IMG/VR virus record: IMGVR_UViG_3300020162_002836
Location: 1-21,156 of that record
Direction: 5' to 3' (one strand)
DNA length: 21,156 nt
Source of the DNA: a virus
Below the pieces are notes generated by a model, which saw nothing but the letters and a program-made list of their open reading frames with translations, did no database searches and was not told the origin of the DNA. The position numbers and the translations under genes are program-made. Of the stretch, positions 6,222-17,287 are shown one piece after another; the first letter of the stretch is position 1; each line of letters opens with the position of its first letter.

Positions 6222-7649
6222 TTATTTTTTTAAATTTTTAATGTTTTTTATCTCGCCTTGAGTTTTTATCCGCTCGTTGTATAACTTAGTTAATATAGAT
6301 CGAGCAACAGAATCAGTTTTTCCGCTAAATGCTGTGTTATTTTTAGTGTGTATATCTTTTTCATCAAGTTTGATTTCGTCTAACTTTCCAATATATGTAT
6401 CTGGAGATATATTAAACTGTATCTGTATGTTAGGATACATTGATGAAAAGTCATAGCACGCAATTGCACCATAATATCCTGGAACAGGGTCCTTTACGTA
6501 TGCACCCTCATATGTAGCATTAATGTCATTTGTTTCTCCCCAAGGAAGCTTCATCATTTTTAAGTTCTTGTTTAGAAACTCTCGACACATAAGGACCTCA
6601 GCTATGTAAACTGGACTAAATACTTTGTTGATTTCTACTTGTGCAACATTTGCCATTGAAAAGGCAACGTCTAAAATAGAAAGCTTGTCCTCTATCAACT
6701 TAACTAAGATAACGTCGATTACGTTGTACATAGTAAACAAATAAACATCTTTTTGAAATTCCATAAAGGAGTCATATTTGTGTTTAAGTTTAGCTGTTCC
6801 TAAAACTAGTCCTGAAATATAGTCTAGTTTATAGTTTTCAATTACTTTGTACGGTTTAAGTTTTTCAAAGACTTGCATGTAATCTAAAACACCTAGGTGA
6901 GTAGGAACCTTTACTTTTGAAAAAGTAGTTTTAGTTGGCATGTTTTCTACTGGATCAATATTGATATTTTTTGCTCTATTCATTAGGTATTTCCAGTCAA
7001 ATTCAGTAACATTCCAGCCCGTAACAAAAGAAAGGTGAGGCATGACTTTGTGAAAAAAGAATTCCATCAGCTCTTTCTCAGTAGTAAAAAACTTATATTT
7101 GATCTTAAAGTCTTGTTCAAATAGGCTAGCATCTTCTGGTTTAAGAGGTACTGTCTTTTTAAAATATTCATTAACTTCTTTTTCCATTCTATCTATTTGA
7201 CTTTGATCCAATCCATCAGGTTGATCTTCAGCAGTTAACATAGATAGTATATAAGTTACATTGTCTTCATTACAAAAAGATATTAGACCTACTGGCATTT
7301 TAGCTTTTTCTGGTTCTGGAAAGGAATCATCTATCAACTTAATCTCAATATCAAGATAAGTCTTCTTAGGATAGTTATCAAAATTATAAATGAGCTCAGT
7401 TTCTTCAGGTGTAAACTTTTCTTTAATTAGCTCCTGTATTCTAAATTGATTGACCCACTGCCCTTGTGTTGAGCTCTTCTTTATGTACTTGCCATTCCAA
7501 TTTCTAGTAGTAGTTGGCGACGTTGACTCTACCCAATTAAATACTTCATGGTCAACTAACCGTTTTTTAATAAAATCAATCTTTCCTTTATCATTATAAT
7601 AAGAGATCATTAATTGGTTGTCATGAGTTACTTCAGAACCTACTATCAT
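6222..7649 (-). CDS. 43A: DNA polymerase gp43, N-terminal half only (exonuclease domain plus palm motif A); split polymerase
   Basis: This is the front half of a T4-type family B replicative polymerase. The N-terminal domain is followed by the 3'-5' proofreading exonuclease. Exo I is LDIE (D100, E102), Exo II is NVTEFD (N213-D218), and Exo III is YNVIDV (Y308, D312). The palm begins with GAYVKDPVPGYYGAIACYDF and motif A, DFSSMYP, at residues 400-406. The protein then ends after a fingers-type helix (YNERIKTQGEIKNIKNLKK) at residue 475. T4 gp43 is about 898 aa, so motif B (K-x3-N-S-x-Y-G) and motif C (DTD) are absent here and appear in no other frame in this window. Aeromonas T4-like phages are known to carry split 43A/43B genes, so this is probably functional with a partner encoded elsewhere. 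The start overlaps the zinc-ribbon gene as ATGA. Confidence 0.93.
   Translation of the reverse strand: MIVGSEVTHDNQLMISYYNDKGKIDFIKKRLVDHEVFNWVESTSPTTTRNWNGKYIKKSSTQGQWVNQFRIQELIKEKFTPEETELIYNFDNYPKKTYLDIEIKLIDDSFPEPEKAKMPVGLISFCNEDNVTYILSMLTAEDQPDGLDQSQIDRMEKEVNEYFKKTVPLKPEDASLFEQDFKIKYKFFTTEKELMEFFFHKVMPHLSFVTGWNVTEFDWKYLMNRAKNINIDPVENMPTKTTFSKVKVPTHLGVLDYMQVFEKLKPYKVIENYKLDYISGLVLGTAKLKHKYDSFMEFQKDVYLFTMYNVIDVILVKLIEDKLSILDVAFSMANVAQVEINKVFSPVYIAEVLMCREFLNKNLKMMKLPWGETNDINATYEGAYVKDPVPGYYGAIACYDFSSMYPNIQIQFNISPDTYIGKLDEIKLDEKDIHTKNNTAFSGKTDSVARSILTKLYNERIKTQGEIKNIKNLKK
6228..6234 (-). other. Possible -1 slippery heptamer TTTAAAA just before the gp43A stop
   Basis: In the gp43A frame the last codons read AAT TTA AAA AAA TAA, so TTTAAAA sits exactly in the X XXY YYZ register of -1 frameshift sites. 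The -1 frame stays open from there through ATA AAA TAT AGT into the ATG of the 96-aa gene, so a shift would give a fusion. No strong downstream stem or pseudoknot is obvious. The A/T-rich leader alone could produce this match by chance. Confidence 0.25.
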
Positions 7650-8341: not shown

Positions 8342-8456
8342 TTTATAATATTTGATATATTATACTGCTAAATAGATTAAGGATCTAGTAAATTTATCGC
8401 TTTTTAGAATTTAGCTATGCCTAGATAGATAAATAATTAAAAATATTTTAAAAGAA
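8342..8456. other. Divergent intergenic region between early (minus) and late (plus) units
   Basis: This 115-bp A/T-rich spacer must hold promoters for both directions. On the plus strand it contains the late-promoter-like word at 8426-8437. On the minus strand I found no convincing sigma-70 or Bacteroidota TAnnTTTG element. A TATAAT-like stretch (about 8360-8365, minus strand) is present but has no clear -33/-35 partner. No hairpin terminator or ORF is seen. Confidence 0.5.
8426..8437 (+). promoter_or_regulatory. Putative late promoter (TAGATAAATAAT) for tail sheath/endolysin
   Basis: The word TAGATAAATAAT contains GATAAATA (8428-8435), a one-base variant of the T4 late promoter TATAAATA and a fit to the NATAAATA form described for cyanophages. 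It ends 19 nt before the sheath ATG, giving a very short leader. The same 12 bases occur at the same relative place upstream of the internal-protein cassette at 17276-17287. Recognition would be by a phage gp55-type sigma factor not present in this window. Confidence 0.62.
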
Positions 8457-15772: not shown

Positions 15773-16525
15773 TTAAATAGAATTGATTATATTATCAACG
15801 TTTGATGAAAATTTTGCATTTGGATAAAGCTCGATTGCTTTTTTTACCCAAGAAACCATCGTTTTATTAAATTCAGCTCTACTTATATAGTCAGACTTAA
15901 GAAACGGCTCTAAGTAATCGTAAAACAATTCATCTAATGGTCTGTCTTCTTCTTGTGAACGAGTATACATCCCTACGACATTAGACTCTATCTCTTCAGG
16001 TAGAATAAAATATTTGCTGCTTTTTTTAGAAGCTTTTCTCTCATGTTCAGTAGAAACATGAACATTAGAATGGTCTCTGTTTATACCAGTCTGGTCTAAA
16101 TGATTGGTCTCATGAGCAAGTGCATCAATTAATTTATAGTAAAGTTTAGAATAGCATATAGGTTCAGTGTTAGGATTGATGATTATATGAATTTCTATTT
16201 TAGGTACCAACATATTTGTATGGTTCAGCTTCATTTTAGCATCTAACATATAACCGTTTTCTTCAAAATTTAGTTCTTCCCAAGGAAGACTATTAAAGTG
16301 TGAGTCGTGTTTAGGATTAGAGTCAGTATCTCGTCTAACATAAAGAATTAGATCAAAAATAAAAGGTTTGGTAAACTCCATTCCGCTAAAGACTGTGTAT
16401 TCTCTACTTTTAGACTTTTTAGAATCACGTATCTTATCTATTAACTGATGAGCAGTTGACTTAATAAACTGAAGTTCAGCGTCTTCGCTTTCATTAATGA
16501 ACTCTATGAATGACATCGCTTTCAT
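15773..16525 (-). CDS. Putative head-packaged zincin metalloprotease with capsid-targeting leader (250 aa)
   Basis: Residues 138-142 read HETNH within LIDALAHETNHLDQ, a HExxH zinc-protease motif on a helix. Downstream, LPEEIESNVVGMYTRSQ (175-191) offers E178/E180 as a third zinc ligand, the arrangement seen in several small phage and bacterial zincins. The beta-strand segment PKIEIHIIIN (108-117) before the helix also fits a zincin fold. The N-terminus MKAMSFIEFINE resembles the T4 internal-protein leader (for example MKTYQEFIAE). It ends in I-N-E, the (I/L)-x-E pattern cut by the gp21 prohead protease. I infer an internal head protein injected with the DNA. The substrate is unknown. The start overlaps the preceding gene as ATGA; a second ATG lies three codons later. 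Confidence 0.82.
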   Translation of the reverse strand: MKAMSFIEFINESEDAELQFIKSTAHQLIDKIRDSKKSKSREYTVFSGMEFTKPFIFDLILYVRRDTDSNPKHDSHFNSLPWEELNFEENGYMLDAKMKLNHTNMLVPKIEIHIIINPNTEPICYSKLYYKLIDALAHETNHLDQTGINRDHSNVHVSTEHERKASKKSSKYFILPEEIESNVVGMYTRSQEEDRPLDELFYDYLEPFLKSDYISRAEFNKTMVSWVKKAIELYPNAKFSSNVDNIINSI

Positions 16526-17013
16526 TTTTTGAACCTAACAAAAGTAACATTGATTGCATTAGTAGTAGGTTCACCGTCTTGTGTAAATACTACCTCTATT
16601 GGAGTATCTTTCTTTCCAAAAACATCAGTAGTTACTGCATTTTTTAATTTTTCTATAAAAGTCATGTCTGAATCAGAGATATTTGAACGAGTGCCTTTTA
16701 TTATGTTTATTAGGTTTTTTTTCTTTATTTCAAGATCTGGGTCAGTGTGTTTTTGTTTGTCGGTAGAAGTAACATTTGATTTTACCCAAGTATCTAAGTC
16801 AACTTCGGTAGTAGAAAAAGTATTATACTCAATAACTACGCTTCCGTCTGGGTATTTTCTACGACGTACTCCTTCATCACTACTGTCTCCAATAAAGGTA
16901 AATAAGTATCTCTTAGCTGGAGCAGGAGTAGCACCTGGAGCACCTGGATCTCCAGGCATAGCTGGAATTTCTTGTTCTACTAAATATCGGGTATATGTCT
17001 TTAAATACTTCAT
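16522..17013 (-). CDS. Putative internal head protein with capsid-targeting leader and Gly/Pro/Ala linker (163 aa)
   Basis: The function is not recognised. The N-terminus MKYLKTYTRYLVE carries the aromatic/hydrophobic leader pattern and ends in L-V-E at residue 13, a candidate prohead protease site. A Gly/Pro/Ala-rich stretch follows (about residues 16-33, with collagen-like PGDPGAPG spacing). Then comes a mixed alpha/beta domain with strands YLFTFIGDS, GSVVIEYNTFSTTEVDLD and PIEVVFTQDG, ending NAINVTFVRFKK. After cleavage the mature protein would start at QEIPAMPG. It is coupled by ATGA overlaps to the gene on each side, so the three products are likely made together late in infection. A long frame on the opposite strand over the same bases is a shadow. 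Confidence 0.75.
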   Translation of the reverse strand: MKYLKTYTRYLVEQEIPAMPGDPGAPGATPAPAKRYLFTFIGDSSDEGVRRRKYPDGSVVIEYNTFSTTEVDLDTWVKSNVTSTDKQKHTDPDLEIKKKNLINIIKGTRSNISDSDMTFIEKLKNAVTTDVFGKKDTPIEVVFTQDGEPTTNAINVTFVRFKK

Positions 17014-17261
17014 TTCTTGCTAGCAAAATTGCCGTAATTTTTAAACATGTTGCGATTGATCATTTTAGGTTTAGCTTCTTCGTATTTAGAATTTACCATA
17101 AGACCTATTACTACACTATCGTTTTTTTCTATGGTTTTATATCTGATTCCTCTATATAAGAACTCATCATCGTCTTTCAACCTATCGAATTCCTTATCCA
17201 TTTGTTTAACAAATTCTGGATCTCTATTTTCAAATATAAATTCGCTAAAACTAGGAAGCAT
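17010..17261 (-). CDS. Putative internal head protein with capsid-targeting leader (83 aa), first of the cassette
   Basis: The N-terminus MLPSFSEFIFE has the SF-x-EFI-x-E pattern of T4-like capsid-targeting sequences, with a candidate cleavage after I-F-E (residue 11). The mature part is small, charged and probably alpha/beta: FVKQMDKEFDRLKDDDEF, then RGIRYKTIEKNDSVVIGLMVN, and a basic tail (KPKMINRNMFKNYGNFASKK). No known domain was recognised. It starts 14 nt after the conserved late-promoter word at 17276-17287 and its stop overlaps the next gene as ATGA. The small size and basic tail would fit a DNA-associated internal protein, but this is inference. Confidence 0.72.
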   Translation of the reverse strand: MLPSFSEFIFENRDPEFVKQMDKEFDRLKDDDEFLYRGIRYKTIEKNDSVVIGLMVNSKYEEAKPKMINRNMFKNYGNFASKK

Positions 17262-17275
17262 GGCAAACGGTTTTT

Positions 17276-17287
17276 ATTATTTATCTA
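17276..17287 (-). promoter_or_regulatory. Putative late promoter (TAGATAAATAAT) for the internal-protein cassette
   Basis: On the minus strand these 12 bases are identical to those at 8426-8437 upstream of the tail sheath gene, and again contain GATAAATA. They end 14 nt before the ATG at 17261. An A-rich tract (AAAAA) follows shortly after in both copies. The cassette is therefore predicted to be transcribed late, separately from the nrd genes upstream. Confidence 0.62.

Follow-up and report, generated by a model that had tools for sequence, protein, structure and literature searches.

We propose that three adjacent genes of a T4-like phage encode internal head proteins of the T4 type, which would be cut by a prohead protease, and that one of them is a metalloprotease injected into the host. 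The short N-terminal leader that the three predicted proteins have in common resembles the repeat unit of a putative scaffold found in relatives. We assign this reading a probability of roughly 70%.

The cassette and its surroundings

The window, that is, the whole stretch of DNA analysed, covers 21,156 bases and represents part of the genome of a T4-like phage. It encodes a RecA/UvsX-type recombinase, a DnaB-like helicase, a B-family DNA polymerase, a gp32-like SSB, a 5'-3' exonuclease, NrdA/NrdB and the gp18 tail sheath. Because the isolates closest in NrdA are Flavobacterium and Cellulophaga phages, the host is probably a Bacteroidetes bacterium. The 21-kb fragment contains no protease, scaffold or capsid gene. 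The evidence on protease and scaffold given below is drawn from relatives, in which gene 3 codes for a protein 37-56% identical to the one in the window. The cassette and the neighbouring genes that enter the argument are as follows:

6222-7649, minus strand: B-family DNA polymerase gene, 475 aa
8457-11456, plus strand: tail sheath gene (gp18), 999 aa
15455-15727, minus strand: histone H1-like Hc1 protein (PF07432, E 1.9e-8)
15773-16525, minus strand: cassette gene 3, 250 aa; leader MKAMSFIEFINE (16490-16525), followed by SE
16522-17013, minus strand: cassette gene 2, 163 aa; leader MKYLKTYTRYLVE (16975-17013), followed by QE
17010-17261, minus strand: cassette gene 1, 83 aa; leader MLPSFSEFIFE (17229-17261), followed by NR and a small body

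The cassette lies on the minus strand, flanked by nrdA and the histone-H1-like gene, and the latter, situated between the gp32-like gene and the cassette, is kept in relatives at 71-86% identity. The sheath gene runs on the opposite strand within the replication block and has a late-promoter-like element of its own; at 999 aa its product is very long, T4 gp18 having 659 aa. The 475-aa polymerase gene covers the exonuclease but only the beginning of the polymerase domain, and because the same length recurs in two relatives (G001 and G005), the polymerase seems to be split.

The three reading frames are linked by ATGA in two 4-base overlaps, as the initial annotation had described. All three predicted proteins begin with the pattern aromatic-xx-aromatic-(I/L)-x-E and continue into bodies that look unrelated; since the motif is kept in homologues of all three genes, the likeness goes beyond chance. 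The leaders end in IFE (residues 9-11, gene 1), LVE (11-13, gene 2) and INE (10-12, gene 3), so that the (I/L)-x-E ending stands as first annotated, while its span is residues 9-13 and not 10-13. None of the three proteins could be assigned to a family by searches of Pfam, PHROGs, NCBIfam and PDB sequences. An antisense frame of 164 aa (16529-17023, plus strand) overlies gene 2; judged by conservation it is mechanical, the conserved frame being that of gene 2. Because of this frame a simple gene caller skipped genes 1 and 2, which makes the leader counts for the window too low.

Conservation and spread of the leader

Gene-3 homologues were gathered from viral contigs, and 50 of the 51 distinct ones carry the leader, with body identity down to about 32%. 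The leaderless relatives that the initial annotation had named as counter-evidence thus amount to a single protein, L166, whose neighbouring gene 2 has the leader. In every leader found P1 is Glu and P3 is I, L or V, with P2 varying, a constancy that is partly set by the search pattern, which restricted P1 to E/D and P3 to hydrophobics; in pattern-free alignments E12 of gene 3 and E13 of gene 2 are invariant.

A nine-residue leader profile was trained on the leaders of relatives, with the 176-kb genome G001 left out. In G001, 16 of 215 genes exceed the 1-in-1000 profile threshold near the N-terminus (3.2 expected from reversed sequences), and a stricter cut-off leaves 10 leader genes against 0.6 expected. 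The 348-kb jumbo contig G007 (L046, L077-L095), which encodes a distant gene-3 homologue, has 24 leader proteins against 1.9 expected. The suggestion that other proteins might bear the same leader is therefore borne out elsewhere in relatives' genomes, where it precedes a Nudix hydrolase, a protein with a peptidoglycan-binding domain and a tyrosine-phosphatase-like protein. The profile found none among the 118 genes of the crassvirus phi14:2, a flavobacterium phage, and none among the 229 genes of the isolated Flavobacterium phage immuto. Immuto proteins (L096-L098, L002) have a different common N-terminus, MENFDLKKFLVENKL / M(E)NFDLKKFLVENKLTxNS, possibly the head-targeting leader of that isolate. 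As a control, ipII and ipIII came out at the top of 19 T4 proteins with a score of 11.0. The cleavage site of T4 gp23 after residue 65, AFGSFLTE/A, also matches the leader pattern; 65 residues are removed from this protein (PMC9958956).

A late-promoter-like element before gene 1

The region upstream of the cassette contains an element of which one further copy, outside the cassette, serves as a comparison point:

17271-17285, minus strand: late-promoter-like element GATAAATAATAAAAA (GATAAATAATxAAAA type) before gene 1, by pattern match
8428-8443, plus strand: second late-promoter-like element, before the gp18 sheath gene

The GATAAATA core ends 16 nt 5' of the gene 1 start codon. The pattern GATAAATAAN{0,3}AAAA matches the window only at these two places, with 0.05 matches expected. 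A GATAAATAA stretch followed by an A-run closely resembles the core of T4 late promoters, TATAAATA. The element is kept 5' of the first leader gene in relatives, and in G001 the core precedes 42 of the 98 genes that have an upstream gap, mostly ending 15-22 nt before the ATG. Within the replication block of G001 just three units have it: the cassette, the sheath gene and a 155-aa gene. The cassette is therefore probably a late unit placed within a block of replication genes.

A putative prohead protease fused to a repeat region in relatives

A gp21-type protease, for which the initial annotation advised a search, was found in relatives, the window fragment itself having none: PF03420 (Peptidase_S77, the T4 gp21 family) matched above its curated cut-off in 9 of 20 relatives' contigs and in 0 of 14 control genomes. 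Most of the 11 contigs that gave no S77 match are probably fragments. This explanation is not obvious for the 348-kb jumbo contig, in which PF03420 had no match despite its about 24 strong leader-tagged proteins. The immuto protease, used as a query, matched nothing in four other contigs, a result that is uninformative because there was no positive control among them.

All nine S77 proteases form the N-terminal part of a fusion protein of about 650-660 residues, in which tandem 14-residue repeats, for example VNYQDYLSTKVNES and INYAEYIKENVNNS, make up the middle. Each fusion contains 8-10 copies of the leader motif, compared with about 0.2 in shuffled sequence, and among the proteins of G001 the fusion has the most internal leader-profile matches (8, with 0.6 expected). 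In G001 a gp23-like capsid gene adjoins it, and because the repeat region is located between protease and capsid gene we infer that it is the scaffold. Repeats of this kind were not seen in T4 gp22, and a search of open-licence papers turned up no account of this cassette, nor of a scaffold whose repeats correspond to a targeting sequence.

Could the N-terminal motif instead be a general amphipathic interaction motif, serving for example in a tail, at a membrane or in a replication complex, with a likeness to T4 that is convergent? The motif is short and one homologue (L166) does without it, as this would allow. On the other hand, nine relatives have multiple copies of the motif in their protease-scaffold fusion, the profile ranks T4 ipII and ipIII first, and P1 Glu and the I/L/V at P3 stay constant while P2 changes. 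We consider the amphipathic motif very improbable. The capsid-targeting leader proposed in the initial annotation gains from the S77 proteases of relatives, the other tagged proteins, the late-promoter-like element and the scaffold repeats, and head packaging of the cassette proteins is well supported by these sequence comparisons, though inferred.

Gene 1 as a variable slot and gene 2 as a linked partner

Orthologues of gene 1 in relatives are 71-89 aa long, and the first slot of the cassette is variable, some relatives adding or substituting other leader-tagged cargo. The added or substituted protein is tyrosine-phosphatase-like in L029/L030 and a Cys-rich protein of 139-142 aa in L037, L039, L041 and L042. 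By analogy, the slot resembles the internal-protein loci of T4 in being a place of exchangeable cargo; the internal proteins of T-even phages are diverse, with the targeting sequence as their only common part (PMC3012670).

In an alignment of 27 gene 2 sequences the leader is kept and E13 is invariant. The leader is followed by a Pro/Gly/Ala-rich linker of freely variable length and then by a folded alpha/beta domain. The AF2 model has a mean pLDDT of 76, with values below 50 in residues 1-29 (leader and linker). Of 50 loci, 48 have gene 2 immediately 5' of gene 3, and therefore the two proteins probably act together. A fold search with the gene 2 model returned homologous phage proteins only. 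Its weak PDB-sequence match to CPAP/Sas-4, which spans 18 residues at E 0.15, was rejected as non-significant.

Gene 3 as a predicted metallopeptidase

Two features of the 250-aa protein point to zinc binding:

16100-16114, minus strand: HETNH, gene 3 residues 138-142, predicted zinc-binding/catalytic motif in helix 125-145 (alignments, AF2)
15992-15994, minus strand: E178, proposed third zinc ligand (gluzincin type) in helix 176-193 (alignments)

The HETNH motif, already recognised in the initial annotation, is invariant in 27 aligned homologues. H138, E139 and H142 of the HExxH motif and E178 are invariant even in homologues of 25-27% identity, in a distant alignment that took in the homologue from the jumbo phage and, from immuto, the C-terminal domain of a protein of 907 aa. 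For the downstream ligand, which the initial annotation placed in the segment PEEIES, we propose E178, which is invariant in near and distant alignments; its neighbours E177 and E180 are lost in distant relatives. The AF2 model (pLDDT 83, pTM 0.84) is of low confidence in leader residues 1-12. Comparison with PDB chains by VIA-align placed gluzincins in nearly all top rows, as weak matches with a best Z of 4.5 and 7-11% identity, and Foldseek found no PDB match to the model at E < 0.001. The zincin call is supported by the invariance of HExxH and E178 and by a weak fold likeness to gluzincins, and gene 3 probably encodes a zinc metallopeptidase of the gluzincin type. Kinship with anthrax lethal factor was rejected, its VIA-align Z of about 3.5 being general gluzincin background.

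An alternative is that gene 3 encodes a degenerate zincin, packaged as a structural or binding protein that has no catalytic role. It would fit with the weak fold matches and with the search of 84,980 prokaryote species genomes, in which no relative of the gene 3 zincin was found at the sensitivity used. However, H138, E139, H142 and E178 stay invariant at 25-27% identity, and the domain occurs in quite different phage proteins; such four-residue invariance across divergent proteins is unlike what lost catalysis would give, and we regard degeneration as improbable.

The 907-aa immuto protein (L002:17673-20396, P0001), annotated as NadR, carries a gene-3-like C-terminal domain. By eye it comprises a nucleotidyltransferase, an NMN adenylyltransferase and two HExxH domains, the second of which is preceded by the leader-like SFSDFIE. 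From this sequence it looks like a head-packaged polyprotein. In both distant homologues, those of immuto and the jumbo phage, the leader-like site (SFSDFIE, RFNNFLNE) is internal and lies immediately before the metallopeptidase domain, as would be expected if cleavage frees the domain.

A packaged metallopeptidase need not act on the host. The leader could be a packaging and cleavage signal for an enzyme that works in the prohead or virion, in head maturation, on core debris or in trimming tail or neck proteins. Probable late expression and co-packaging with a scaffold that needs degradation would suit such a role, and gene 2, linked as it is in nearly all loci, could be its substrate or regulator. 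Against this, the clearing of the core is already explained by an S77 protease whose cleavage motifs match, the cassette lies in a swappable slot outside the head-gene block, and the tyrosine-phosphatase-like cargo adjoining it in relatives is host-directed in its chemistry. A role inside the head is in our view unlikely, and action on the host is the reading that we follow below.

A proposed mechanism

We hypothesize that the cassette is transcribed late, together with the virion genes, and that each protein is directed into the prohead core by its N-terminal leader, which has the pattern aromatic-xx-aromatic-(I/L/V)-x-E and a length of about 11-13 residues. Since the putative scaffold in relatives consists of tandem repeats of the leader motif and is fused to the protease, the leader would most likely work by its likeness to one such repeat. 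Next, the S77 protease would cleave leaders and scaffold repeats alike behind their Glu. This would remove the scaffold and leave the mature proteins free within the head, from which they would pass, along with the DNA, into the next cell. Directly after entry the gene 3 metallopeptidase (HExxH and Glu178) would act on a host protein, with the gene 2 product as a near-obligate partner that perhaps serves it as chaperone, inhibitor or substrate adaptor, and the gene 1 product as swappable cargo. For targeting sequence (CTS), core assembly, cleavage and ejection there is precedent in T4 (PMC3012670, PMC5694885, PMC9958956, PMC7411985).

In its fullest form the hypothesis is a code of scaffold mimicry: each leader would equal a single 14-residue repeat, co-assemble with the core and be set free when protease cuts break the scaffold down, those cuts being the same for both, so delivering a metalloprotease, its partner and swappable enzymes. 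We advance this form tentatively, as a possibility at somewhat less than even odds. The motif common to leader and scaffold could alternatively reflect protease specificity alone, with no docking. The N-terminal site of T4 gp24, KINELLRE/S, is without the aromatic pair that leaders and scaffold repeats have, and docking is therefore mildly favoured.

Comparison with known systems

Like the M1-type gluzincins (the aminopeptidase N fold group), gene 3 is predicted to combine a HExxH helix with a downstream helix that bears an invariant Glu; its match to them reaches only Z 4.5 at 7-11% identity, outside any Pfam, NCBIfam or PDB-sequence family. In SPN3US and phiKZ, many head-packaged ejection proteins are cut after a short x-x-E motif (PMC5694885, PMC7411985). 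Their propeptides are mostly longer than 100 residues and end in an AXE-like motif, whereas those predicted here have about 11-13 residues and an aromatic pair.

With T4 gp21 and gp22 nine relatives have in common a PF03420 protease and, in G001, an adjacent gp23-like capsid gene. Unlike in T4, protease and putative scaffold are a single protein, and this scaffold, unlike gp22, repeats the leader motif. We know of no settled answer to the question of how the core recognizes the CTS in T4, and a scaffold built of leader-motif repeats would be a simple and testable one.

A further parallel is with T4 IPI, IPII, IPIII and Alt, otherwise unrelated proteins with the same kind of short N-terminal leader (the CTS) and the same hydrophobic-x-Glu ending. 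T4 internal proteins are likewise exchangeable cargo, and a gp21-family protease is likewise present in the group. The leaders are far more numerous than in T4, with at least 10 in G001 and about 24 in G007. As a rule for reading the genomes of uncultured phages, the leader lists candidate injected proteins; here these candidates are a Nudix hydrolase, a phosphatase-like protein and the predicted metalloprotease together with its near-obligate partner. Unlike that of T4, the cargo includes a predicted metallopeptidase and, in relatives, Nudix and phosphatase-like proteins. To our knowledge no head-packaged, host-injected metalloprotease has been described in T4-like phages; if active, the gene 3 product would represent a novel type of tool for takeover or counter-defence.
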